Virus record (IMG/VR): IMGVR_UViG_3300027739_000025
Location: 1 to 31,168 of that record
From: a virus
DNA length: 31,168 nucleotides
Direction: 5' to 3' (one strand)
Shown: positions 4,616-21,078 of the stretch, piece by piece
Position numbering within the stretch: position 1 is the stretch's first letter
How the letters are laid out: every line of letters starts with the position of its first letter
The notes under the pieces: generated by a model
What the model was told of the DNA's origin: nothing
The model's database searches: none
The model's input: only the letters and a program-made list of their open reading frames with translations
Position numbers and translations under genes: made by a program

Positions 4616-5435
4616 TAATCCCCGCCACCCGCAGCCGCCCAGCGGCCGCTTCCGCTCGCCCGCATGCTGGAAAACGCTCTCCAGCGCCCTCCCGACGCCG
4701 CAACTCCCCCCGTTTTACGCCCCGCAACCCCCTCGTTCGACCACTTATCCACAGACCGATGCTCCGATTGGGACAACCGCCCCGGATGCCCTTCCCTTTG
4801 CTGCAAATTTAGGCGTCCAGTGGTACCAGCCTATGGCTGTAAAACAGAGCCTTTACCCCGCTGTTTACCCACAACCCCCGTGCAGTCCTCTAGATGATGG
4901 CCCCTCACTTCGCGCCTTTCGGCGCGGAGGGTACCCGGTCGAGGCCATCGCACCGACGGTGACAGACCGAACCCGGCCCCTTCCAGTCGCTGTGATCCGC
5001 CAAGCACCGAGCACAAACACGATCGTGCAACGGATCTTCGCTCCTTCACGGGCCAGCCTTCGGCGGCGTCGCTGCGCTCCGGGTAATCAGTCGAGGGGTA
5101 GGGTCTTGGCTCTTTCGCCTTGCCTGCGGCCTCCGAGGGGCCTCCGGCGCGAAAAGCGAGCAGACGCAGGATCAGCGCACAGCGAAGCGGAAGCGCTGCA
5201 TGCCGGGCCGCTGGCGGGCTTTGGCTATGGGGTGCCGGGCAGCAGCGCTGTGCTCGGTGGCAGGTCCTGCGGGAAGTCAGGCGAATATGGTTCTGGGCAG
5301 CGTCCCGGAGGTGGCCGAGGTGGTTTCGTCGAGCCGTCCGGCGGGTGTCCTGGGCGATCTGCTGCGGCCGGCGCCGGCGGCCCGAGGGCCTGGGCGTTGC
5401 CTCGGCGGGGCAATTCGCGGTGTTGAATAGTTTAT
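4616..5435. other. Candidate replication origin region (CIS and oriR-like)
   Basis: About 820 bases without a convincing gene. It follows repA directly, as CIS and oriR follow repA in R1. Visible elements are a perfect DnaA box at 4745-4753, an AT-richer stretch around 4800-4870 within otherwise GC-rich DNA, and a hairpin CGCGCC-TTTC-GGCGCG at 4911-4926. Long open frames here have the low-complexity, Pro/Arg-rich look of shadows. I saw no clean array of iterons, which agrees with an IncFII-type rather than an iteron-type origin. Confidence 0.55.
4745..4753 (+). promoter_or_regulatory. DnaA box
   Basis: TTATCCACA, a perfect consensus DnaA box, 130 bases after the repA stop. In R1 a single box of this sequence marks the start of oriR. 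Confidence 0.75.
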
Positions 5436-5464
5436 TTGTTAGTTTGTTAGTTTGTTGTTATGCT
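5436..5464 (+). promoter_or_regulatory. kfrA promoter with three tandem 8-bp repeats
   Basis: TTGTTA (5436-5441), a 17-base spacer and TATGCT (5459-5464) form a good sigma70 promoter. Three tandem units TTTGTTAG, TTTGTTAG, TTTGTTGT (5435-5458) fill the -35 and the spacer. KfrA of RK2 represses its own promoter by binding a repeat-rich operator there, so these are candidate KfrA sites. Confidence 0.65.
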
Positions 5465-5499
5465 CTCCGAAACAAACCCGCTCATGGAGAGACCCCCGC

Positions 5500-6447
5500 A
5501 TGCGCCCCGCCGACATCGCCCCGGAACAGATCATCGAAGCTGGCCAAGCCCTGCAGGCGGCCGGCCGCAACATCACCGGCTTCGCCCTTCGCCAGCGCCT
5601 GGGCGGCGGCAACGCAAACCGGCTCAAGCAAATCTGGGAAGAGTTCGTTGCCAGTCAGGCCATCGCCCAGGCAGAGCCGGTAGCCGAGCTACCAATTGAG
5701 GTCGCCGAGCAGCTCAAGGCCACCAGCGAGGCTCTGGTCGAGCGTCTGTCCCGGCTGGCGGTCGAGCTGAATGATCGCGCGGTGAAGACCGCCGAGCGCC
5801 GCGTCGCCGATCTGGTACGCACCACCGGCGAGCAGCGTGAGCAGATGGAGCGGGAGCTGGCCGATGCCTCCACGGCCGTCGACGAGATGGAAACCCAGCT
5901 GGCCGCCGCCCAGACCCTGTACCGGGAGCAGAACGCGAAGCTGGCCGAGGAGAAGGCGCGTAGCCAGGCACTGGCCGTCGAGCTGGCCCAGGTCAAGGAG
6001 CGTGCTGCTGCCGGCGAGAAGGCCGCGAAGAAAGCGGCCGAAGCCGCTGCCCGCCGCGAGACCGAGCTGCTCAAGCAACTGCAGCAGGCCCGGCAGGCCG
6101 AGCAGGATGCCCGCGCCCGCGAGGCCGCCGTCAACGGCCAGCTACAGGCTGCCGCGCAGCGCCGCGAGGACGATGCCCGACTCGCTGCTGAGCTACGTGC
6201 CGAGCTGGACAAGGCTCGCGCCGAGGTCGAGACCGGCCGCGCCCAGCTGCAGGCCGCCCTGGCCCGCCTTGACGGTGCCGGCTGCGATCTTGAGGAGGCC
6301 CGTAAGCAGGTGCGCGAGGCTCGCGAGGAGGCGAAGCAGGAGGCCGGAAACGCCGCGGAGTTGCGCGGGGAGTTGCGGGCACAGCAGCAGGAGCTGGCCA
6401 GGCTGCTGGTGGCGCAGGAGCGGCAGGCTGGCGAGCCGTCAGCGTGA
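5500..6447 (+). CDS. kfrA: KfrA-like plasmid DNA-binding coiled-coil protein
   Basis: A 315-residue protein close in size to RK2 KfrA (308). Residues 1-60 form the KfrA N-terminal DNA-binding domain: IIEAGQALQAAGRNITG then ALRQRLGGGNANRLKQIWEEF. Residues from about 70 to 310 are a very long Ala/Glu/Arg/Gln coiled coil. KfrA proteins are autoregulatory plasmid-borne, nucleoid-associated-type proteins linked with stable maintenance. The ATG at 5500 follows GGAGAG and lies about 36 bases after the predicted -10. The gene closes with a GCG codon and a TGA that is embedded in the dispersed repeat at 6442-6457. The presence of KfrA argues strongly for a plasmid lifestyle. An alternative is a KfrA-domain protein of an integrative element. 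Confidence 0.85.
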   Translation: MRPADIAPEQIIEAGQALQAAGRNITGFALRQRLGGGNANRLKQIWEEFVASQAIAQAEPVAELPIEVAEQLKATSEALVERLSRLAVELNDRAVKTAERRVADLVRTTGEQREQMERELADASTAVDEMETQLAAAQTLYREQNAKLAEEKARSQALAVELAQVKERAAAGEKAAKKAAEAAARRETELLKQLQQARQAEQDARAREAAVNGQLQAAAQRREDDARLAAELRAELDKARAEVETGRAQLQAALARLDGAGCDLEEARKQVREAREEAKQEAGNAAELRGELRAQQQELARLLVAQERQAGEPSA

Positions 6448-6513: not shown

Positions 6514-6561
6514 AAAGAATTAACGAATTCAAGAATTCTTGAGTTAAAGAATTCTTGAATC
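6514..6561. repeat. 8-bp repeat array A
   Basis: Six consecutive 8-bp units: AAAGAATT, AACGAATT, CAAGAATT, CTTGAGTT, AAAGAATT, CTTGAATC. Units occur in both orientations. The first 28 bases, including the flank AGT, are identical to array D before parA (13196-13223). The array lies between kfrA and the promoter of the antirepressor operon, so it may be a binding site for the ParG-like protein that controls that promoter. Confidence 0.8.
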
Positions 6562-6605
6562 TGGTAGAGTACGCCCTGCGCGCGGTGGTGCGGCTCCATT
6601 GCGCG

Positions 6606-6635
6606 TTGACAGGCATTTTGACATCGGCGTAGAGT
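6606..6635 (+). promoter_or_regulatory. Promoter of the c4/icd/antirepressor operon
   Basis: TTGACA (6606-6611), 18-base spacer, TAGAGT (6630-6635). A second TTGACA at 6618-6623 lies inside the spacer. Repeat array A ends 45 bases upstream. Confidence 0.65.
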
Positions 6636-6639
6636 CCGT

Positions 6640-6741
6640 CCGCTGCCGCTCATCGGCAGCCGGGTCTGCAAGCCCGAGCAAGCAAAGACTCATAGCGCTA
6701 ACCCTTCACGGCGCGCTTTTTGGTGTCTGTGAAATCCTGTT
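6640..6741 (+). ncRNA. Putative c4-like antisense leader RNA
   Basis: The leader between the promoter and the Icd-like ORF contains a hairpin (GCTGCCG, CTCAT, CGGCAGC, about 6642-6660) and the 11-base segment GGGTCTGCAAG (6662-6672). That segment is perfectly complementary to CTTGCAGACCC at 6796-6806 within the Icd-like ORF, shortly before the antirepressor start at 6881. In P1 and P7, c4 RNA is made from the same operon as its target, and pairs by short segments with the icd/ant message to block it. Promoter, RNA, Icd-like ORF and antirepressor are in the same order here. Ends are approximate. Confidence 0.5.
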
Positions 6742-7023
6742 ATGGCGGGCCGCGTAGGGAGACCTTCGGGTCTGCCGGGTCCCTTTGCTCCCGGTCTTGC
6801 AGACCCTGCGCGGTTCGCCACCATTTCCCCGTCTGCAAGCGGTCAGTGGCGAACTCATCAACCAGCAAAGGAGTTCCGCCATGTCTCAGTCGCGCCCTAC
6901 CCAGAATCCGTCTGCCGCTCGTGCAGAAGGCTCCGATGTGAATCCAGAAAACATGCCGGTAATCACCCATGCGGGGTGCCGTGTCGTGACCACGGCGTTA
7001 CTGGCGAAGCTGTACGGGACTGA
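6742..7023 (+). CDS. Icd-like (cell-division-inhibitor-like) leader ORF
   Basis: A 93-residue ORF overlapping the start of the antirepressor gene in another frame, as icd overlaps ant in P1 immI. The N-terminal part (MAGRVGRPSGLPGPFAPG, then LADPARF) resembles the Icd/Ash-like leader proteins annotated upstream of phage antirepressors and P4-like genes, which share a Gly/Pro-rich start of the same spacing. The downstream half, where it overlaps the antirepressor gene, may be non-functional shadow. There is no strong ribosome binding site. P1 Icd interferes with host cell division; whether this protein does, or whether translation of the ORF only serves to couple antirepressor expression, cannot be decided from sequence. 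Confidence 0.45.
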   Translation: MAGRVGRPSGLPGPFAPGLADPARFATISPSASGQWRTHQPAKEFRHVSVAPYPESVCRSCRRLRCESRKHAGNHPCGVPCRDHGVTGEAVRD

Positions 7024-8056
7024 AGCGAAGTATGTACAGAAAAACTTCACTCGCAATGCTGCCCGGTTCGAGGAAGGCAAGCACTTCTATAGGCTGGAGG
7101 GCGCTGAACTCAAGGCTTTCAAGAACAGACCCGATAATATCGGGTCTGTTGATGACAGACCATCTTTAAGATGGTCTGTTGGTGTAAACGCTAGGAGCCT
7201 GACGCTCTGGACCGAGCACGGCGCCGCCCGCCATGCCAAGATGCTCGACACCGACCAGGCCTGGGATGTGTTCGGGAAGCTGGAGGACTGCTACTTCAGC
7301 CAAGTCGAGCAGGAAGTCCACCGACCCTCCTCTTCCCCCGCGCCGGCAGAGCAGGAAGATCCAGACACCGACGCCGACTTCGTCGTGCTGCGCTACCAGG
7401 GCATCAAGATCAGGGTCATGCACATGGAGGGCGGCTACTGGTACGGGGCGGCGGCCCTGGCCCGTGCGCTGGGTCGGCGCGACGCCTACGTCATCACCGG
7501 GTTTCTCCAGCCCTGGCAGCTCTCCTGCGTGCCGTGCGGCGGCCGGCATATCCAGATGGTCAGCCATACCGGCATGCTCGATCTGTCCGCCCGCTTCCGT
7601 GAGGGCAGCGAACTCCTCGTCTGGCTGGAGCGGAAAATCCCGCATGTGTTCTCCGCCGTCTCGGCTCCCCAGTCGGCCCCAACGCCGGAGCCGGCCAATC
7701 CGCTCGCTAGCGTGACGGGTGACGCTCGGCAACTGGCCATGGATTACTTCGGCAACTGCCGAAAGGCGGTGCTCGATGCCGGTGGCCAGGTGCCGAGCTG
7801 GGACGCCACGACCGAGCAGCGGATCGCCGATGGCGTTGCCGCCCTGCTGCTGGAGCGGCACCGCTATGTGTTGACCTTCGGCGAGGGCGGCGCACCGAAG
7901 ATGGAGGCCGTGCCGTTCGGCTCGGTGGTGGTCGATCCGGCGGACGGCGACCGCCTGGCCCGGTTGGTGTGGGAGCGGGTCCCGGTCGAGGCCCTTCCCA
8001 TTCTGATGGAGGCGGCCTGCCGGCGGCTGGCCCGGCTGGTCGAGGGCAGCCGGTAG
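6881..8056 (+). CDS. ORF6N-domain phage antirepressor
   Basis: A 391-residue protein. Residues 28-135 match the ORF6N/KilA-N-type DNA-binding domain of phage antirepressors: VVTTALLAKLYGTEAKYVQKNF, written in two parts VVTTALLAKLYGTE and AKYVQKNFTRN, then EGKHFYRLEGAELKAF and LWTEHGAARHAKMLDTDQAW. The middle (about 165-250) is a second domain with WYGAAALARALGRRDAYV, also BRO/antirepressor-like. The C-terminal 120 residues are unrecognised. It should antagonise the lysogenic repressor to allow induction. The ATG at 6881 follows AAAGGAG; a longer in-frame extension lacks such a site. Codons 82-100 are built from two perfect palindromes, discussed separately. A variant stop-associated repeat lies in frame at 7710. 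Confidence 0.75.
   Translation: MSQSRPTQNPSAARAEGSDVNPENMPVITHAGCRVVTTALLAKLYGTEAKYVQKNFTRNAARFEEGKHFYRLEGAELKAFKNRPDNIGSVDDRPSLRWSVGVNARSLTLWTEHGAARHAKMLDTDQAWDVFGKLEDCYFSQVEQEVHRPSSSPAPAEQEDPDTDADFVVLRYQGIKIRVMHMEGGYWYGAAALARALGRRDAYVITGFLQPWQLSCVPCGGRHIQMVSHTGMLDLSARFREGSELLVWLERKIPHVFSAVSAPQSAPTPEPANPLASVTGDARQLAMDYFGNCRKAVLDAGGQVPSWDATTEQRIADGVAALLLERHRYVLTFGEGGAPKMEAVPFGSVVVDPADGDRLARLVWERVPVEALPILMEAACRRLARLVEGSR
7124..7150. repeat. 27-bp perfect palindrome inside the antirepressor gene
   Basis: AACAGACCCGATA, a central A, then TATCGGGTCTGTT. It lies between the two conserved blocks of the ORF6N domain. Confidence 0.85.
7155..7179. repeat. 25-bp perfect palindrome inside the antirepressor gene
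   Basis: ACAGACCATCTT, a central T, then AAGATGGTCTGT. The outer seven bases are shared with the palindrome at 7124-7150; the inner bases differ but still pair. Confidence 0.85.
7710..7725 (+). repeat. Stop-associated repeat, in-frame variant
   Basis: GCGTGACGGGTGACGC, one base off the full form, inside the antirepressor coding sequence and read as Ser-Val-Thr-Gly-Asp-Ala, so here it does not provide a stop. Confidence 0.55.
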
Positions 8057-8064
8057 CGTAGACC

Positions 8065-8133
8065 TTGACCCTTAAATTGAGGGTCAATGGAAATCTCGTG
8101 GCGTGACGCGTCACATTCCCCGCGTCTGCGGGG
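8065..8133 (+). terminator. Stem-loops after the antirepressor gene
   Basis: TTGACCCT (8065-8072) pairs with AGGGTCAA (8080-8087), and CCCCGC (8118-8123) pairs with GCGGGG (8128-8133). Neither has a clear T tract. Between them, GTGACGCGTCAC (8103-8114) is a perfect palindrome sharing GCGTGACG with the dispersed repeat. Likely transcript end, but weak as an intrinsic terminator. Confidence 0.4.
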
Positions 8134-8215
8134 ATTCCCCCTTCCTTTATATGCATGACGAACAGGCGCGCGCCCATCCCAATGTGCGGCGCCCTCCTCT
8201 ACCTGTTCGTCGAGT

Positions 8216-8279
8216 AAAGAATTCTTTAATTCTTTAATTCAAGAATTCTTGATTGCTAGAATTCTTGAATTCTTTACTA
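8216..8279. repeat. 8-bp repeat array B
   Basis: Eight consecutive 8-bp units: AAAGAATT, CTTTAATT, CTTTAATT, CAAGAATT, CTTGATTG, CTAGAATT, CTTGAATT, CTTTACTA. It opens with AGTAAAG and closes with CTTTACT, its inverse complement. It is the longest of the four arrays and lies 160 bases before the gene at 8442, in an otherwise gene-free stretch (8057-8441). Confidence 0.8.
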
Positions 8280-8390
8280 TGATCGAGGTAGGCGCCGCGA
8301 GCATGCGGGCACGCCCTGGCCGTCTGGCCAGGGGTGTTCGGGAGGGTTTCGGGGCGTCACAGGAGGCCGCCAGCAGGCGGCAGAAAGATG

Positions 8391-8419
8391 AACGCCGGGG
8401 CATTGCAGGCCCCGGCGTT
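8391..8419 (+). promoter_or_regulatory. GC-rich hairpin in the leader of gene 8442
   Basis: AACGCCGGGGC (8391-8401) and GCCCCGGCGTT (8409-8419) form a perfect 11-bp stem with a 7-base loop, 22 bases before the ATG at 8442. No T tract follows, so it is more likely an attenuator, mRNA-stabilising or protein-binding element than a simple terminator. Confidence 0.55.
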
Positions 8420-8441
8420 CGGCGGACAAATGGAGATACCC

Positions 8442-9524
8442 ATGTCCTGTACCAATACTATCACCTTCGCCCGGCCGACGGCCTGGGCGTTCCGGTCCAT
8501 CGCCCTGGTGCTGTCCAGCGTCACCGCCGTGTCGGTCGGCCTGGCCATGTTCGTCCTGGTCGAGGATCGCCGGCTGGCTCTGCTGTTCGCCGTGGCGGCG
8601 GTACTGCTCGATGTCTTCAAGTACCTGGCCTGGCCGTTCGCGGCCGCGTTGCTGGGCGCCGGCCGGCGGCTGTGCGCGGTGCTGCTGGTGGTTTGTGCCC
8701 TGCTGCTGGCCGGGGTGTCGTGCTGGGCGACCTATGACCGGCTGATGACCTCCATCGTCGGCAGCCGTGCCGAGCAGCAGGCCGTCCAGTCGCAGCGCAT
8801 CGCCGATCTGGAAGCCGCCCGCGCGGACGATATCCGGCTGCTCGCCGGCCTGGATGCTGAGGCCGAATCGGTGCACGCCCAGGCGCTGGCCCTGCGGGAC
8901 CGCGGCATGGCGAGCAAGGCCACCGAACTAGAGGCTACTGCTCTACCCCGCATCGCCGATCAGCGCGAGCAGGCCCGCGCGCGGCTCGACCGCCAGTCCA
9001 TGGAGCTGACCGCGCTGCGCGCCAAGATGCCCAAGGGCGCCGGCCTGCCGCTGGAGGTGGCCACTCTGCTCTGCCTGGGCTTCGCCTTCGCTCTGGAGGT
9101 GGTCCCGGCGTTGATCCTGACCGCGCTGCGCCAGGTGCCGTCCCGTGTTCGGGTGGCCGATCTGGCTGCCCTGGAAACCGTCGAGGCCGTGCCGGCAACG
9201 CTGCTCCCGGCCCCGGAAGCGCGGCCGGAAACACCGACAACACCAGCAACGCTCCCCGGCAGCGGCCCGGCAGTGCTGGGCGACAACGCTGAGCTGCTAC
9301 AGAAACTGCTCCAGCACACCGCGGAAGCGGGGGCAGGCGCACTGGTCACGCTGCGCGAGTTCGCGAAAACGGCCGGCATCGGCAACCTGCGCGCCGGGCA
9401 GATTTTCCGCATGGCGGTTGAGGCGGGCGCGCTGGCCAAGACGGCGGGCGGGCGCTATGCGGTCTGCCGGGATGCAAGAATTCAAGAATTAAAGAATTCT
9501 TTACTCGTTGTGCAGGAGGCTTGA
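8442..9524 (+). CDS. Four-helix membrane protein with coiled coil and C-terminal winged-helix-like region
   Basis: A 360-residue protein not assigned to a family. Hydrophobic segments lie at about residues 12-34, 37-62 and 67-87, then a periplasmic or cytoplasmic coiled coil at about 95-190, then a fourth membrane segment at about 200-222 (ATLLCLGFAFALEVVPAL). After a Pro-rich linker, residues 300-345 (GALVTLREFAKTAGIGNL, then GQIFRMAVEAGAL) look like a winged helix. A membrane protein with a cytosolic DNA-binding tail could anchor DNA or sense envelope state. The ATG follows GGAGATA. It lies downstream of repeat array B, and its own 3' end contains array C, so it looks like part of the plasmid-maintenance regulon. 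Function unknown. Confidence 0.65.
   Translation: MSCTNTITFARPTAWAFRSIALVLSSVTAVSVGLAMFVLVEDRRLALLFAVAAVLLDVFKYLAWPFAAALLGAGRRLCAVLLVVCALLLAGVSCWATYDRLMTSIVGSRAEQQAVQSQRIADLEAARADDIRLLAGLDAEAESVHAQALALRDRGMASKATELEATALPRIADQREQARARLDRQSMELTALRAKMPKGAGLPLEVATLLCLGFAFALEVVPALILTALRQVPSRVRVADLAALETVEAVPATLLPAPEARPETPTTPATLPGSGPAVLGDNAELLQKLLQHTAEAGAGALVTLREFAKTAGIGNLRAGQIFRMAVEAGALAKTAGGRYAVCRDARIQELKNSLLVVQEA
9475..9506. repeat. 8-bp repeat array C
   Basis: Four units CAAGAATT, CAAGAATT, AAAGAATT, CTTTACTC, closing with CTTTACT as in array B. It lies inside the last codons of gene 8442 and 24 bases before the start of gene 9530, and is therefore both coding and a possible operator. Confidence 0.75.
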
Positions 9525-9529
9525 CGGCG

Positions 9530-10423
9530 ATGAGAGATCCCCACGACACCGCGACCCTTGACCTTGTCGAGGCTGCCCGCCAGCCGCTGAGCGCCGCCGA
9601 GCGGCAGCGCCGGCACCGGCAGAAGAGGAGGCGCGAGCGGGAGGAGGGCAGGCGCGTCGAACTGGAGTTCACCAGCGACGAGCTGATGCTCCTTCGGTAT
9701 CTGGCGGGCAAGGAGAGCCAGTATTGCAGTGAGCAGCATCCTGGAAGCCAGAATGAGCAGGCCTATACCAGCCTGCAGCGGCGCCTGTCCGTCGCCAGTG
9801 TGGGGCATGACTCTCCGGGCGACGCGCGCTGGTCGCGCGAGGCGCTGGAGCAGGGCGCAGCCGAGGCGCGGTGTTTTCTGGAGCGGCAGCGCCTGGAGGT
9901 TGAGGCTCTGCGAGCGCGAGTCGAGCAGCTGGAGCAGGAGAATGCCCAGTTGGTGGCCGAGCGCGACAGTCTGCTCGGGGGCGGTGACGATCTGCAGGAG
10001 GCCGAAGGCCTGCGCGAGTTCCGGCTGAGTGATAGCGACCTGGCATTTCTGCTGTGGTGCATCGACGGTCACCTGACGATCCGCAGCGACCTGGAGCACC
10101 TCAAGGCCCAGAGCGTTCGCGATCTGATCGACAGGCTGTTCAAGGATTCCCGCTGGAGTGCCTGCGTCGACACGATGGGCAATGACCAGGGCATTCGGAA
10201 CATCATCAAGCGCCACACGGAGGAGGCCAGCCGTGCGCATCGTAACTATCAGGAGGAGTTCAAGGCGCGGCGCAAGGATGGGGAGCGGTACACGCAGAGC
10301 CTTCGCAGCCTAGAGCGGGAGAACTCCATGGTGGTGGCCGAGCGGACCCAGGCCTTCGAGGTGGTCGCGGTGCTGCAGAAGCGACTGCGGGAGGCTGGGC
10401 TGAGCGATGACTACCGGGCGTGA
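9530..10423 (+). CDS. Basic N-terminus, coiled-coil hypothetical protein
   Basis: A 297-residue protein. Residues 20-42 are strongly basic (SAAERQRRHRQKRRRERE), followed by a segment RVELEFTSDELMLLRYLAG that resembles a beta-strand plus helix of ribbon-helix-helix type. Coiled coils follow at about 105-150 and 225-285. I do not recognise the family; the layout suggests a DNA-binding, oligomeric plasmid protein. AGGAGG at 9514-9519 favours ATG 9530 over the in-frame TTG at 9521. The start is six bases after the stop of gene 8442, so they are probably one operon under array C. It ends GCG-TGA within the dispersed repeat at 10418-10432. Confidence 0.6.
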   Translation: MRDPHDTATLDLVEAARQPLSAAERQRRHRQKRRREREEGRRVELEFTSDELMLLRYLAGKESQYCSEQHPGSQNEQAYTSLQRRLSVASVGHDSPGDARWSREALEQGAAEARCFLERQRLEVEALRARVEQLEQENAQLVAERDSLLGGGDDLQEAEGLREFRLSDSDLAFLLWCIDGHLTIRSDLEHLKAQSVRDLIDRLFKDSRWSACVDTMGNDQGIRNIIKRHTEEASRAHRNYQEEFKARRKDGERYTQSLRSLERENSMVVAERTQAFEVVAVLQKRLREAGLSDDYRA

Positions 10424-10432
10424 CGGTAACGC
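10418..10432 (+). repeat. Stop-associated repeat, copy 3
   Basis: GCGTGACGGTAACGC, the 15-bp form with one G fewer in the centre. TGA at 10421-10423 is the stop codon of gene 9530. Confidence 0.75.
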
Positions 10433-10547
10433 ATTGACCGCAGGAGATCCCATGAAATACATCAAAGGAGCATGACCTATTTACCATGAAGTGCGAGAGC
10501 TAAGCCGGCAAGTTCAGGTAAAATGGGCGCTTATCAAGGAGACCAGC

Positions 10548-11096
10548 GTGGCCGAACAGCAGTATTTTCCCGAGTTGGTCATCGCTGGTGAGCGCATCGA
10601 TCTCTCGCATCTCGAGCCTTTCACCTTCGTCGTCTATAGTCAGACGGCCAAGCGTGACCTGCGTGTGCACGTCACCTTTTCCAACCACTGTTTCAGCCAT
10701 GGCTATGACCAAGCGAGCCACCCTGCCAGCGAGCCGATCATCGATGCAGGATCACTCAGGCCCAGGACGTTCTGCCCGATCCGCTACCGCCTCTCTCAGC
10801 AGTTGCCTGCCCTGATCCAAACGCTGAATCATCCCAAGGCAAAAGTCTGGGAAACGACGGCGGAGCGCAACTGGTGTTATTCGATCACCATCGATGATCC
10901 GGAAGGCCCCTACCACGTCTTCTTTGAGGTACGCCGCGCTTCCAGAGATCGGCGGCAATGGCAGGATCTGCACCTGGTGGTGGAAAGTGCTTATCACCAA
11001 GATGAGGGTGGCGGGCCCAGCCTGAAGGGCTCGATGGCCTTCATCCTGCTGTGCGGCAAGGTCTATCTCGGCGAGCCGACCGCGACCAAACGCTGA
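10548..11096 (+). CDS. Hypothetical protein, candidate moron
   Basis: A 182-residue protein starting at GTG 10548 behind CAAGGAGACC; the upstream in-frame extension lacks such a site. Visible segments are FTFVVYSQTAKRDLRVHVTF, then PIRYRLSQQLPALI, WCYSITID and GPYHVFFEVRRASRD, suggesting a mixed alpha/beta fold rich in His and aromatic residues. I do not recognise a function; relatives of this kind on Pseudomonas plasmids and islands are annotated only as hypothetical or growth-adaptation proteins. It stands alone between a 124-base non-coding gap and its own terminator and appears lower in GC than its neighbours, the usual signature of an independently expressed cargo gene. Confidence 0.55.
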   Translation: MAEQQYFPELVIAGERIDLSHLEPFTFVVYSQTAKRDLRVHVTFSNHCFSHGYDQASHPASEPIIDAGSLRPRTFCPIRYRLSQQLPALIQTLNHPKAKVWETTAERNWCYSITIDDPEGPYHVFFEVRRASRDRRQWQDLHLVVESAYHQDEGGGPSLKGSMAFILLCGKVYLGEPTATKR

Positions 11097-11117
11097 GCTG
11101 AAAGGCAGAGACGAAAA

Positions 11118-11136
11118 AAGGCGCCATAGGCGCCTT
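11118..11136 (+). terminator. Terminator after gene 10548
   Basis: AAGGCGCC and GGCGCCTT form a perfect 8-bp stem around ATA, with an A tract before and CTTCTTC after. It can work on either strand. Confidence 0.6.
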
Positions 11137-11516
11137 CTTCGTATTCGTTAAAGCAGATCCGGACACCACTTCGGCTTACGCCTCGGTTCGCCTTGCGCGA
11201 ACACCCTTTCAGGCTAGGGAACGCTCAATCTCATCCGGTCAGTCGTTCCGCAGTTGCGGGATTATTATTCCACTATCAGTTGAATAGCGCAAAGCTAATT
11301 GATCATTTTCGATCATCGGAAATCACGCTGAATAACTCCGGATCACGCTACATCATCGCTGCGCGCAACGGACGCTATGTTCAATCGCCCCCACCAGATG
11401 AGCCCGCTCCGGCGGGATTTTTCATGGGCTCTGGCTGCCAGAGGGTAGGGGGGTGGCGTACCATAACCCCAGTATATGGTTTTACGCCGACCCCGCCCCT
11501 ATGGAGAGCCCAAGCT
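11137..11516. other. Gene-free stretch with one terminator and small inverted repeats
   Basis: No convincing gene. It is AT-richer in the middle (11250-11340). Visible elements are TGATC-ATTTTC-GATCA at 11300-11315, a terminator hairpin at 11403-11422, and ACCATA (11460-11465) with TATGGT (11475-11480) just before gene 11517, which could be an operator. An open frame running in from 11193 has no recognisable protein before residue 108. Confidence 0.5.
11403..11422 (+). terminator. Short intrinsic terminator
   Basis: CCCGC and GCGGG pair around TCCG and are followed by ATTTTT. It isolates the NinX-like gene from upstream transcription. Confidence 0.65.
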
Positions 11517-11933
11517 ATGCCCTCGACTGCTGACCCGTTCTTTGCCGCGCCGCCCATGGTCGAGGTGGCGGCCGGCGAGCTGGCCGGCGCTGCCCTGGCC
11601 TGGGCGGTGGCCGAGGCCGAGGGCCGCAAGCCGATCCTGCTGCCGCCAACCTACGGCTTGCCCGCGCGGGTGGCCGTGCGCGAGGCTGGCCGGCTGATCG
11701 CCTGGCGCCCCGAGCGCGACTGGTCGCAGGCTGGGCCGCTACTCGACCAGTGGTGCAAGGGCTTTGGCATGGTGCAAGACCCCGCCCACAAGGGGTTCCG
11801 CGCGTTCGCCTATGGCCGCGAGCCATTCCAGCGCCTGCAGGGCGGCCCGACGCTGCTGGTCGCCGCCTGCCGCGCGCGGGTGGTGGTCATGCTGGGCGAC
11901 GTGGTGCGGGTACCGGCCGAGCTGGTGGCCTGA
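11517..11933 (+). CDS. NinX-like phage protein (DUF2591)
   Basis: A 138-residue protein with the pattern of DUF2591 (phage NinX): an N-terminal VEVAAGELAGAALAWAVAEAEG, seen here as VEVAAGELAGAA and LAWAVAEAEG, a central YGLPARV region, and the C-terminal block GPTLLVAACRARVVVMLGD followed by VRVPAEL, close to the family signature of a Thr-Leu-hydrophobic-Ala-Ala core and a final Val-Pro-x-Glu-Leu. The biochemical role of NinX is unknown; in lambdoid phages it belongs to the nin region. Here it sits beside partition genes and overlaps the next gene by one base (TGATG), indicating coupled translation. Confidence 0.65.
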   Translation: MPSTADPFFAAPPMVEVAAGELAGAALAWAVAEAEGRKPILLPPTYGLPARVAVREAGRLIAWRPERDWSQAGPLLDQWCKGFGMVQDPAHKGFRAFAYGREPFQRLQGGPTLLVAACRARVVVMLGDVVRVPAELVA

Positions 11934-12169
11934 TGCGCCAGGCAATCAGCGAGGAGGCCCTGCAGCTGATGATCGCCCAGGGCGCAGCGCGCGAGTTTCT
12001 CGCCCGGCGCACAGCCGATGGGCAATGGTGGACCTTTAACGTGCGGATCGGGGTGAACTGGCTGCCGGTGCGGTCAAGGCGCGAGCCGCTGCGTAAGTGG
12101 GCCAGCCTGACCGCGGTCGAGCGCTTCGCCCAGGGGATGGGAGTGCGGTCCTTCCTGGTCGAGCTGTAG
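11933..12169 (+). CDS. ParC-family partition-associated-like protein
   Basis: A 78-residue protein. The order ISEEALQLMIAQGAAREFLARR, read as ISEEALQLM plus a Gly-Ala turn, then a central strand pair around WWTFNVRIG, then SRREPLRKWASL and a C-terminal GVRSFLVEL follows the short proteins annotated as ParC-family partition-associated or KorA-adjacent in Pseudomonas plasmids and integrative elements. Its role in those elements is not established. It overlaps the NinX-like gene and runs towards the leftward parA/parG-like pair, with a two-way terminator between them. Its TAG stop lies two bases before a minus-oriented stop-associated repeat. Confidence 0.55.
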   Translation: MRQAISEEALQLMIAQGAAREFLARRTADGQWWTFNVRIGVNWLPVRSRREPLRKWASLTAVERFAQGMGVRSFLVEL

Positions 12170-12170
12170 G

Positions 12171-12186
12171 GCGTTACCCGTCACGC
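12171..12186 (-). repeat. Stop-associated repeat, copy 4
   Basis: The full 16-bp form in minus orientation (plus strand GCGTTACCCGTCACGC), two bases after the stop of gene 11933. It is not in a coding sequence and provides no stop to the leftward genes. Confidence 0.75.
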
Positions 12187-12193
12187 ACGCAAG

Positions 12194-12219
12194 AAAAAGC
12201 CCTGCCATGTGCGGGGCTT
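12194..12219 (-). terminator. Terminator of the leftward par operon
   Basis: AAGCCC (12197-12202) pairs with GGGCTT (12214-12219), with inner pairs, and on the minus strand is followed by TTTTTC. It also can stop rightward transcripts from the NinX-like operon. Confidence 0.7.
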
Positions 12220-12239
12220 GTCGTTTGGGCGGCCGGTGC

Positions 12240-12515
12240 TTACTTGCTCGGTGTCCAGCCCTTTTTCTTCATGTAGTCGATCAGGGCCTCCTTGAATGCG
12301 GAGACCTGTGAGACTTCGTGCGTGGCGCAGAACAGGCGGAAGTCTTTGCGCAGCTCTGCCGGGATCTTGAAATTGATGTCGACCAGTTGGCTGTCGCTGC
12401 CGGTGCGGGTGTTGTTGCCAACCACGACGGTGTCGGCGGCCGATTGCGGCGGCTCGCCCTTGTTGAGGCGGTGGGGTTTTGGCGCACTGATGCGAGGGGT
12501 TTTTGCTTCGGTCAT
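12240..12515 (-). CDS. parG: ParG-like ribbon-helix-helix centromere-binding protein
   Basis: A 91-residue protein with a flexible, basic and polar N-terminal 43 residues and a C-terminal ribbon-helix-helix: strand LVDINFKIP (44-52), helix ELRKDFRLFCATHE (54-67), turn at VSQ, and helix SAFKEALIDYMKKKGW (72-87). This is the layout of ParG of TP228, whose mobile tail stimulates the ParF ATPase and whose RHH dimer binds the centromere and represses the par promoter. The gene follows parA by 19 bases on the same strand, the classical type Ib order. Its likely DNA sites are the 8-bp repeat arrays, one of which lies directly before parA. The symbol reflects resemblance, not proven orthology. Confidence 0.7.
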   Translation of the reverse strand: MTEAKTPRISAPKPHRLNKGEPPQSAADTVVVGNNTRTGSDSQLVDINFKIPAELRKDFRLFCATHEVSQVSAFKEALIDYMKKKGWTPSK

Positions 12516-12534
12516 GGCGTTCTCCAGAGGGCGT

Positions 12535-13185
12535 TCAGGCGCTGGCGATCAGGTGTTCAAAGCGCGCGATGGCAGCCTGGATGACCTGCAGGGCCTGTTC
12601 GCGCGGGGCTTTGTAGGGGGTTTCGATCACCGACAGGCCGGCGTCCATGGCGCGGCTGAAGGCGGGTTTCTGCGGGATCTCGCCCTCAAGGGTGGCGAAC
12701 CGGGTCTTGCTCAGGTAGGTGCGCGCTTCGACCAGTTCGGCGGTGCTGCTGCCGGTCTTGCACAGGACGAAGGCCAGGCGCTCGAGCGGGATGGCATGCT
12801 GGTCGGTCAGGGTGTTGGCTAGGGTCACCGCCGGTTCGAGGTCGTCGAGGGACAGCCCAGTGGGGATCAGCAGCAAGTTGGCGGCCTTGGCGATCGCCAC
12901 AGTTTCTGCGCTGGCGTGCGGTGCGCCGTCGACGATCAGGATGTCTGCGTCGCCGGCCTTGCGCACAGCACCGGCTACGTTGCCGAACATCTGCACCGGA
13001 ACCTCTGGACTGACACCAGCACGCAGGCGGCGCTGTTGCCATGCGGTGGCGGTTCCTTGTTTGGTGTCGAGGTCGGCCAGTAGCACAGACCAATCGTTGA
13101 GGGCGAAGGCAGTGCCCAAGGCGCGGGCGAGGGTGGACTTGCCGGGGCCGCCTTTTTGCGAAACGCATCCGATGACGTAGGGCAT
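12535..13185 (-). CDS. parA: ParA partition ATPase, type Ib
   Basis: A 216-residue deviant Walker ATPase without an N-terminal HTH, the size and form of ParF/type Ib ParA proteins. The Walker A box is KGGPGKSTLA (residues 11-20) with signature Lys11 and catalytic Lys16; Pro replaces the usual Val. Walker A' is LLADLDTKQGTAT (35-47), and Walker B is ILIVDGAP (82-89). The protein should form nucleoid-bound gradients that segregate plasmid copies. The ATG at 13185 has a weak ribosome binding site, and the repeat array starting at 13199 lies only 14 bases upstream, so repression by the ParG-like protein at that array is likely. A half copy of the stop-associated repeat (GCGTTACC) sits in the 5' leader. 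Confidence 0.9.
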   Translation of the reverse strand: MPYVIGCVSQKGGPGKSTLARALGTAFALNDWSVLLADLDTKQGTATAWQQRRLRAGVSPEVPVQMFGNVAGAVRKAGDADILIVDGAPHASAETVAIAKAANLLLIPTGLSLDDLEPAVTLANTLTDQHAIPLERLAFVLCKTGSSTAELVEARTYLSKTRFATLEGEIPQKPAFSRAMDAGLSVIETPYKAPREQALQVIQAAIARFEHLIASA

Positions 13186-13198
13186 GGCGTTACCTAGT

Positions 13199-13238
13199 AA
13201 AGAATTAACGAATTCAAGAATTCAAGAATTCGTTAATT
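13199..13238. repeat. 8-bp repeat array D, candidate par operator/centromere
   Basis: Five units AAAGAATT, AACGAATT, CAAGAATT, CAAGAATT, CGTTAATT directly before parA. The ends are inverse complements (GAATTAACG and CGTTAATTC). In ParF/ParG and omega-delta systems the RHH protein binds such short repeat arrays at the par promoter, which can double as centromere. Confidence 0.8.
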
Positions 13239-13366: not shown

Positions 13367-13537
13367 TCAGGCTTCGGTTTGTTTCTTCAGCATTTCTCGC
13401 AACTTGAATCCATCCTCGATCAGTAGCTCAAGCTCGGTGTTCATGCTGTGTCTGTTTAGCTCGGCCTCTCTCTTGGCGCGTGCTTTCAGTGGCGGTTGCA
13501 AGCGCAGTCCAAACGGCATGATGTCGCGTTTTTTCAT
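13367..13537 (-). CDS. Arc/Mnt-like ribbon-helix-helix regulator, leftward
   Basis: A 56-residue protein matching the Arc fold: strand DIMPFGLRLQP (5-15), helix PLKARAKREAELNR (16-29), turn HSMN, helix TELELLIEDGF (34-44). The start at 13537 was chosen because it mirrors the start of the divergent Arc-like gene and lies outside the shared operator; a longer frame to 13594 would run through that operator. Arc-like dimers bind operators as tetramers. It faces away from the gene at 13639, giving an immI-like divergent pair. Confidence 0.7.
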   Translation of the reverse strand: MKKRDIMPFGLRLQPPLKARAKREAELNRHSMNTELELLIEDGFKLREMLKKQTEA

Positions 13538-13550
13538 GACGATCTCCCAG

Positions 13551-13619
13551 TGAGTCACGGTGGCTATGGTTTCACCGTGACTCATTGAAGTCAATTTGTC
13601 GTGAAGCTATGGTGACTCA
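13551..13619. promoter_or_regulatory. Operator region between the divergent Arc-like genes
   Basis: TGAGTCACGGTG (13551-13562) and CACCGTGACTCA (13573-13584) are perfect 12-bp inverted repeats with a 10-bp spacer; a third half-site GTGACTCA lies at 13612-13619. The sites fill the gap between the two Arc-like starts. They contain CACGGTG-like cores that recall the Mnt operator of P22, which may be chance. Confidence 0.7.
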
Positions 13620-13638
13620 CGTTTTTTGTGAGGCGCAG

Positions 13639-13896
13639 ATGAGCCGAGACATCACCCCGTTTGCGCTCCGTATGCCGCCAGAGTTGCGCGCAAAGGTGGA
13701 GCATGCAGCCAAAGAAAGCCGCCGCTCCCTGAACTCGGAGATCGTCGCCCGCCTGGATGAGAGCTTTGGTCAGGGCCTGCCGGTTGTCTCGGTGAACGAG
13801 TGCCGCAGATCCCCCTCGTCGGTAGCCAATGCCCTTGAGATGATCGACCGCCTCCGGGATGAGTTGCTGGCCATTGCGGCCAGCCCCAAGGAATAG
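13639..13896 (+). CDS. Arc/Mnt-like ribbon-helix-helix regulator, rightward
   Basis: An 85-residue protein. Residues 4-43 (strand DITPFALRMP, helix PELRAKVEHAAKESRRS, then LNSEIVARLDESF) follow P22 Arc almost position by position, including the Arg-Ser-x-Asn-Ser-Glu turn. Residues 44-85 add a linker and a helix (SSVANALEMIDRLRDELLA) that could form the tetramerising coiled coil, as in Mnt. The ATG at 13639 follows GTGAGGCGCAG. It should bind the operator at 13551-13619 and regulate itself and its divergent neighbour; in P22 such a pair controls antirepressor synthesis, and an antirepressor is present here at 6881. Confidence 0.8.
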   Translation: MSRDITPFALRMPPELRAKVEHAAKESRRSLNSEIVARLDESFGQGLPVVSVNECRRSPSSVANALEMIDRLRDELLAIAASPKE

Positions 13897-19788: not shown

Positions 19789-21078
19789 ATGACCGACCCA
19801 GCGAGCAAGACCCTGCATATCAAGTTCAGCGAGGCCGAGATCCGTCGGCACGCCGAGCAGCCCCATATCCGCCAACTGCGCGACCTCCGTTATCCCCCTC
19901 TGCTGCTGCGCTTCGCCACTGGCCGCGCCCGGGCTTCCTGGCTGATCGTCCGTCATGCCCAGGGCCGCAGCACCTCGATCAAGTTGGGAAACTGGCCCGA
20001 TTTGCCGGTGCGCGCCGCCGTCGACCTTCTGCCGGGCAAGCTGGCCGAGCTGACTGCCGACCCGTCCGCCGCCGTGCGAGTGTCGGGCTGGCTGACCGTG
20101 GCCGATCTGCTGGACTGGTATGCCGGGCGGGTGGCCGCGGATCGCAACCTGTCCGGCAAGCGCAGGGGCACCGTGCAGTCGCTGATCAAACGTCAATTGC
20201 GACCTCGGGTCGGTGCGCTGCGGCTGCTCGAGGTCGACCGTGCCGCCCTTGACGAGCAGATGATCTGGCCCATGCAGGCGACCTGCAGCCTGGCCTACAC
20301 CCGCCAGGCCTTCGGGCTGCTCAAGCTCTCCTTTCGGCAGGCCTTCAAGCTCAAGAAGCTGACGGTCGATCCGCTGGCCGGCATGGTCTTTACCGACTTC
20401 ACCGAGGCGGCGATCCGCCCAAAGCCCTGCGCCCTGCGCCCGCAGCAACTGCCCGCCTTGCTCGAGCGGCTGGCCGGTCTATGGGAGAAGCGCCCGGCCG
20501 AGGTGCTGCTGGCGTTGATGATGCTCTGCCACGGCACCCGCCTCGGCGAAACCCGCCAGGCCCGCTGGGTCAATGTCGACCTGAGTGAGGTTGGCGAGTG
20601 GTTCATCCCGGCGGCCGACACCAAGACCGGGGCCGAGCACCGCCTGCCGATCACCCGTCCGGTGTCCGCGCTGCTGGGCGCCTATCGGGACCGGCAACAG
20701 GCCAGGGGTTATGACGGCGCCTGGCTGTTCCCGCGCGGCGACGGCCGGCCCTGGACCGACCGCCAGGCCTCGGCAGTGTTCGAGCGTCTGGGCGGCGGCG
20801 AGTGGACCAGCCATGACCTGCGCAAGCTGGCCCGCTCGACCTGGGCTGACCTGGGCGTCGACTACCTGATCGGCGAGCTGTTGCTCAATCACGCCCTCGA
20901 TGACCTCGACGCCGCCTACATCCATACCCACGCGATGGCCCTCAAGCGTGACGCCCTGGAGCGCTGGCACCTGTGGCTCGAAGCGCGCGGCCTCTCTTTT
21001 TTTGCCGCCGGGACGACACCGGGACGCGCTGAGCAGGCGACCCCGGTGCAGGCTGCGAACGCCGGCGGCTGGCTCTAG
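19789..21078 (+). CDS. int: Tyrosine recombinase (integrase or resolvase)
   Basis: A 429-residue phage integrase with all catalytic residues visible: Arg251 in HGTRLGE, Lys279 in DTKTGAEH, His342-x-x-Arg345 in SHDLRK, His368 in LLLNH, and nucleophile Tyr377 in AAYIHTH. An arm-binding-like N-terminal region (1-95) and a core-binding domain (98-195) precede it, as in P4/DUF4102-type integrases. In a plasmid-like lysogen it could integrate the element or resolve multimers, as Cre does in P1. I found no tRNA fragment or obvious att core beside it. ATG 19789 follows GGGAGCCAGGT. It is the first gene after the early operon and precedes a zinc-ribbon gene. Confidence 0.9.
   Translation: MTDPASKTLHIKFSEAEIRRHAEQPHIRQLRDLRYPPLLLRFATGRARASWLIVRHAQGRSTSIKLGNWPDLPVRAAVDLLPGKLAELTADPSAAVRVSGWLTVADLLDWYAGRVAADRNLSGKRRGTVQSLIKRQLRPRVGALRLLEVDRAALDEQMIWPMQATCSLAYTRQAFGLLKLSFRQAFKLKKLTVDPLAGMVFTDFTEAAIRPKPCALRPQQLPALLERLAGLWEKRPAEVLLALMMLCHGTRLGETRQARWVNVDLSEVGEWFIPAADTKTGAEHRLPITRPVSALLGAYRDRQQARGYDGAWLFPRGDGRPWTDRQASAVFERLGGGEWTSHDLRKLARSTWADLGVDYLIGELLLNHALDDLDAAYIHTHAMALKRDALERWHLWLEARGLSFFAAGTTPGRAEQATPVQAANAGGWL

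Follow-up and report, generated by a model that had tools for sequence, protein, structure and literature searches.

Dispersed arrays of an 8-bp repeat in a phage-plasmid as probable landing sites of its ribbon-helix-helix partition protein

Introduction

The virus record IMGVR_UViG_3300027739_000025, a linear record of 31,168 bp that was analysed over its whole length (the window), raises the question of why uninterrupted arrays of one 8-bp unit should occur at four separate places, one of them directly before the partition gene parA and the others before an antirepressor unit and two further genes. The window is a linear fragment of a phage-plasmid, with terminase, portal, capsid-type, LexA/S24-type repressor and integrase genes on the phage side and a KfrA-like gene, a weak rep-like match, and parA with a small ribbon-helix-helix (RHH) gene on the plasmid side. 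An earlier reading of the bare sequence (the original prediction) proposed that a ParG-like protein uses the four arrays both as a centromere and as a regulon. The comparison with relatives described here leads us to the view that the arrays, A to D, are probably landing sites of the RHH partition protein encoded beside parA.

Four arrays of an 8-bp unit

Each 8-bp unit consists of a 4-bp box followed by AATT or a near match (Table 1), the boxes seen in arrays A to D being AAAG, CAAG, AACG, CTTG, CTTT, CGTT and CTAG. Spacers other than AATT are AGTT and AATC in array A, ATTG in array B, and ACTA/ACTC after the final box of arrays B and C. All four arrays were found where the original prediction had placed them and with the same unit counts, and the stretch that it described as common to arrays A and D (AGTAAAGAATTAACGAATTCAAGAATTC) is exactly 28 bases long. 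It had also described the arrays as bounded by AGTAAAG or CTTTACT, and this is true of at least one side of every array but of both sides in array B only. The arrays are far above chance: the window holds 12 pairs of AATT at a spacing of 8, whereas 200 first-order Markov shuffles gave 0.065 such pairs on average and never more than 2. With one exception, the AATT-to-AATT distances of no more than 40 bp are all divisible by 8.

The predicted placement before parA, the antirepressor unit, gene 8442 and gene 9530 was also found, with array C lying inside the end of gene 8442. Array D lies about 14-53 bp upstream of the parA start, between the RHH gene 13367-13534 and parA, where it overlaps the expected parA promoter region and is a putative centromere and autoregulatory operator. 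Array A, whose unit agrees with the dialect of the window's own par locus, lies 178 bp upstream of the unit formed by a C4 RNA and an ORF6N gene, array B occupies the gap preceding gene 8442, and array C is 24 bp upstream of gene 9530.

Table 1. Coordinates of the repeats, genes and other features of the window
Feature	Position	Strand	Details
Array A	6514..6561		6 units: AAAG AACG CAAG CTTG AAAG CTTG
Array B	8216..8279		8 units: AAAG CTTT CTTT CAAG CTTG CTAG CTTG CTTT
Array C	9475..9506		4 units: CAAG CAAG AAAG CTTT
Array D	13199..13238		5 units: AAAG AACG CAAG CAAG CGTT
ParG-like RHH protein	12240..12515	-	91 aa; putative reader of arrays A-D
parA	12535..13185	-	216 aa, small ParA; Pfam CbiA (PF01656)
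C4 antisense RNA	6738..6825	+	RF01695, 79.9 bits
ORF6N-domain protein, likely antirepressor	6881..8056	+	3' of C4; PF10543, E=1.8e-18
Candidate sigma-70 promoter	6606..6635	+	TTGACA-N18-TAGAGT, between array A and C4; consensus match only
Gene 8442	8442..9524	+	3' of array B; hydrophobic and coiled-coil-like stretches in product
Gene 9530	9530..10423	+	3' of array C; coiled-coil protein; weak homologs in 14/48 related loci
KfrA-like protein	5452..6447	+	KfrA_N PF11740; start possibly 5500
Fifth period-8 array	5422..5462		AACAAACT units, kfrA promoter; not of par dialect
Inverted repeat CACGGTG...CACCGTG	13556..13579		between divergent RHH gene 13367-13534 and Arc-like gene 13585-13896
Integrase	19789-21078		

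The partition genes of the window

The window's ParA has at its N-terminus a deviant Walker A motif with the signature lysine, SQKGGPGKST, and this motif is kept in every relative aligned. An N-terminal helix-turn-helix (HTH) is absent, and the nearest solved relatives are 5u1g ParA and ParF (4dzz). In the window and its relatives, the RHH gene follows parA directly. The AlphaFold model of the RHH monomer, which is of modest confidence (mean predicted local distance difference test score, pLDDT, 69; predicted template modelling score, pTM, 0.37), has helices at residues 53-66 and 70-84 and no beta-strand; this absence is, in our view, to be expected where the fold depends on dimerization. The top Foldseek matches of this model are RHH proteins, none of them under E=0.1, with ParG (1p94) as a weak fold match. 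When the sequence profile of the protein was searched against PDB sequences, 2kel was matched at E=1.3e-5 and ParG 1p94 was not returned at E<=10. The N-terminal tail, the part that in type Ib systems carries an arginine finger for activating ParA, is probably disordered, being modelled at low confidence (pLDDT about 52-63), and its alignment shows a conserved G and a PP motif with no invariant arginine.

The protein, called ParG-like in the original prediction, is so by layout and fold but not by sequence. With a small ParA that lacks an HTH, an RHH gene after parA and iterated repeats at the par operon, the window probably encodes a type Ib-like partition system, i.e., a small ParA paired with a small RHH centromere-binding protein.

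Arrays at par loci of relatives and their probable reader protein

Relatives of the ParA and RHH proteins were found in phage-plasmids and plasmids of Pseudomonas, Halomonas, Aeromonas, Vibrio and Edwardsiella, as well as in many viral contigs, and a profile built from ten RHH proteins places the partner gene directly 3' of parA in most of them. At 41.5 of 45 non-redundant loci, the DNA flanking par had 8 or 16 as its best period. At a threshold of 17/24 matches, period 8 was reached at 39 of these 45 loci, as against 0 shuffles and 0-4 loci at the other periods compared (4 to 15); the arrays are therefore kept in relatives that have the par genes, a point on which the original prediction had staked its claim. 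No arrays of period 7 were seen. Wherever the parA promoter can be resolved, the boxes flank or overlap its predicted -35/-10 elements. The unit itself varies from element to element (AGCTAATT, AGCGAATT, AACGAATT, AAAGAATT, AACGCAAT and others). One 76.6-kb contig, IMGVR_UViG_3300044878_000205, carries two diverged copies of the par locus (L104 and L105) and is possibly two related elements joined.

This variation gives a handle on which protein reads the arrays. Where residue 50, in the RHH beta-strand, is arginine, the unit has C as its fifth base (5 of 5 cases, against 0 of 32 otherwise); where residue 46 is aspartate, the second base of the unit is G in 12 of 14 cases, against 0 of 23 otherwise. 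Similarity between units also tracks the beta-strand residues beyond what identity in the remaining protein accounts for (partial Mantel r=0.48, p=0.001, n=37). Since the RHH protein is the constant companion of the arrays and its beta-strand co-varies with their unit, the product of 12240-12515 is, from these comparisons, the most likely reader of arrays A to D.

Two other DNA-binding proteins of the plasmid side might be thought of as readers. The KfrA-like protein is of a plasmid type, its gene adjoins array A, and in three related loci (L016, L334 and L335) a kfrA-like gene is likewise followed by an array. Nevertheless, of 42 related records only 4 gave a KfrA_N match, while the arrays are present in most, and the array upstream of kfrA has a unit unlike that of A to D, so that binding of arrays A to D by KfrA is in our view highly improbable. 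Still less probable is that the arrays are replication iterons bound by Rep. A rep-like gene is often found within about 2 kb of the arrays remote from par, but iterons are usually longer than an 8-bp unit (20 bp in pP62BP1), and the arrays track par also where no Rep3665 homolog was found, such homologs being present in 11 of 49 loci. The arrays moreover flank or overlap the parA promoter, which argues against the iteron reading.

Arrays remote from par and their proposed role

Away from par, 51 strong period-8 arrays were detected in 48 par loci (1.01 Mb), compared with 0-13 at other periods. These remote arrays resemble the unit at the par locus of their own element (similarity 0.599) more closely than expected from 300 random assignments (permutation mean 0.510, maximum 0.546). 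The control set, 43 viral loci that have a gene 8442 relative and lack the RHH gene, gave 0 period-8 arrays in 589 kb. Seventy-one percent of the remote arrays are intergenic, against 20% of random positions, and the share that is both noncoding and at most 250 bp upstream of a gene start is 78%, compared with 13% for random positions; genes of the viral contigs were called for this purpose with a custom simple codon-usage caller and not with a standard one. Eight integrase genes (L104, L105, L107, L130, L133, L134, L137 and L146) are preceded by an array of their own par dialect, although the window's integrase has no array upstream. Two isolated Vibrio phages with a par locus of the window's type have 6 arrays each, all shortly upstream of gene starts, among them capsid and tail genes. 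Similar sites upstream of other genes in dozens of relatives suggest that one protein serves both inheritance and gene control.

From sequence comparison, we consider it likely that the window encodes a type Ib, ParFG/omega-like centromere-binding protein with an autoregulatory array and dispersed operator/centromere arrays. RHH dimers would line up on contiguous 8-bp units, with the beta-ribbon reading the 4-bp box and AATT acting as spacer. At array D, the protein would build the centromere complex that is moved by ParA and would repress the parA-parG promoter. At arrays A, B and C, it would occupy the promoter-proximal gaps of the C4/ORF6N antirepressor unit, gene 8442 and gene 9530, respectively, and modulate these neighbours, most simply as a repressor. 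Each of arrays A to C has at least 4 units, and these arrays may therefore double as extra centromere sites. The dual role put forward in the original prediction is supported in part, in that the comparative evidence ties the arrays to the parA/RHH genes, makes the RHH protein their likeliest reader and marks the remote arrays as one dispersed set. The further link that it drew between segregation and lytic induction would depend on the position of array A before C4/ORF6N. In P1, C4 silences the antirepressor; because C4 is itself a silencer, the sign of an RHH effect at array A cannot be predicted. An array before C4/antirepressor is clear in the window only, with one weak parallel (L125), and the integrase gene and a family of ~108-aa proteins are better conserved remote targets.

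Several observations weigh against this reading. The window and a near-identical relative (L007) are both exceptions to the rule for D46, as their RHH proteins have D46/N48/K50 yet their boxes are CAAG/AAAG/AACG, and few independent lineages stand behind the R50 and D46 correlations. The enrichment of remote arrays at gene starts follows in part from their intergenic placement and thus does not tell regulation apart from spare centromeres. In about half of the examined loci, many of them partial, no remote arrays were detected. Array C falls within coding sequence, at the end of gene 8442, and the stretch that separates it from gene 9530 showed no good sigma-70 promoter.

The odd dialect of the window lineage would be explained if its arrays were read instead by the Arc-like RHH protein 13367-13534, whose gene, like its Arc-like neighbour 13585-13896, was found among the 49 par loci compared in the window and L007 only, both of the CAAG dialect. 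We think this very unlikely. Homologs of this protein that are 62-66% identical (in L332 and L333) come with no period-8 array, and their genes stand next to ACACCGTG-type repeats; the window's comparable palindrome, CACGGTG..CACCGTG, adjoins 13367-13534; and arrays are present in dozens of elements where no homolog of it was found. The KfrA-like, Arc-like RHH and Rep proteins were accordingly rejected as readers, the candidates having been weighed by their co-occurrence with the arrays.

With the partition RHH protein kept as the reader, the remote arrays might still be extra centromeres that have settled in tolerated intergenic gaps and have no regulatory role, much like the dispersed SopB sites of N15 if these are viewed as partition sites only. 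In favour of this, none of arrays A to D has fewer than 4 contiguous units, the number below which ParA is not fully activated in pSM19035 (PMC9499535), some arrays of the isolated Vibrio phages are 3-18 bp upstream of late genes within operons, and intergenic placement by itself accounts for much of the enrichment at gene starts. What makes a purely centromeric role unlikely is that the distance from array to start is near constant within a gene family despite differing dialects (57-61 bp in many members of the ~108-aa family and 39-121 bp before the eight integrase genes) and that repression of promoters at their own sites is known for RHH partition proteins of this kind (PMC7308502, PMC9499535). 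The genes with the 57-61 bp spacing encode ~104-109 aa (L146:15898-16318, and further genes in L130, L147, L109, L112, L127 and L137), several being of one family (LTNAQQVAATILDQLGARRF...).

A scan with a DNA pattern of the window's dialect was also made; it returned 110 stretches, essentially at chance except for one on the contig of L007, and gave no independent support.

Comparison with known systems

The original prediction took omega of pSM19035 as its precedent. This RHH protein binds iterated short repeats at the copS, delta and omega promoters and acts in both partition and regulation, with 4 units as the minimum for full ParA activation (PMC9499535). The precedent holds for an RHH protein, iterated short repeats and several promoters. 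In contrast to the window, however, pSM19035 has 7-bp WATCACW units and a separate promoter per gene, while the window has 8-bp units in a phage-plasmid, with putative targets that include the integrase (in relatives) and C4/antirepressor. Closer precedents for 8 bp are TP228 ParG (PMC7308502) and pP62BP1 (PMC3346939).

In TP228 parFGH, the sites of ParG are tetramer boxes set apart by AT-rich spacers, and the protein is also a repressor at its own operator (PMC7308502). The window shares with it a small ParA, a small RHH protein with a flexible N-tail and, as one of the two closest solved ParA relatives, ParF itself; the degenerate tetramer boxes and AT-rich spacers of the TP228 centromere are also alike. 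It differs in that sequence search detects no relationship between the window's RHH protein and ParG, the window's boxes alternate with AATT, and its arrays are dispersed to other genes. The Psychrobacter plasmid pP62BP1 has seventeen 8-bp direct repeats upstream of parA and eight similar ones elsewhere (PMC3346939). It resembles the window in having 8-bp repeats before the parA of a ParG-type system and a second set at another place, and differs in being a single plasmid case with repeats AATACTCA and a ParG of family PF09274.

The sop system of N15 offers a phage-plasmid with dispersed centromere sites. It reportedly facilitates late gene expression. Unlike the window's system, it is type Ia (SopA/SopB), with an HTH protein and palindromic sites, and has no RHH protein and no tandem 8-bp arrays; four separate centromere sites have been described (PMC7205306).

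Partition proteins that double as regulators are thus known from single plasmids (PMC9499535, PMC7308502), and the general kind of system seen here has precedents in pSM19035 omega, TP228 ParG, pP62BP1 and N15 SopB. In the literature searched, a limited collection in which no report of dispersed RHH arrays in phage-plasmids was found, what appears to be new is the breadth among phage-plasmids, the targets and a protein-DNA code that can be read. More tentatively, and with somewhat more doubt than confidence, we suggest that in a large group of phage-plasmids (of Pseudomonas, Halomonas, Vibrio, Aeromonas and Edwardsiella, and uncultured relatives) a type Ib-like protein may be a global regulator, reading 8-bp arrays in the dialect of each element at promoters such as those of par, integrase and antirepressor. 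Segregation would then be tied to the choice between the plasmid, integrated and lytic states, and a beta-strand-to-box code that diverges between elements would set incompatibility. If the pattern holds, a partition protein that is also a regulator would be the rule in a widespread phage-plasmid group. Stable inheritance would be linked to phage gene control, incompatible co-resident elements could be predicted, and ~40 natural protein-DNA pairs would be at hand from which the site preferences of RHH proteins could be learned. The pattern can be put to the test in the isolated Vibrio phage VPHZ6.

Other features of the window

The C4 RNA scored 79.9 bits with its covariance model, against a gathering score of 45, and is also present in five other phage-plasmid records of the window's par family. 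C4 followed by an ORF6N gene is the layout of a P1-type antirepressor unit (immI). P1 immI and the window are alike in having a C4 antisense RNA upstream of an antirepressor gene and differ in the 8-bp array that precedes the unit in the window; to our knowledge, such an array is not part of the P1 arrangement.

Two further repeats are probably operators of other proteins. The array at 5422-5462, which the original prediction had missed, is probably KfrA's own operator, and the palindrome at 13556-13579 is probably that of the two divergent Arc-type RHH genes between which it lies. In L016, L334 and L335, an array stands directly 3' of the kfrA-like gene, like array A in the window.

DNA similarity searches returned no close relative of the 6-16 kb region. 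Within it, a segment of ~780 bp (10535-11315) that spans most of gene 10491-11096 is 76-77% identical to conjugative plasmids of the Pseudomonas syringae group.

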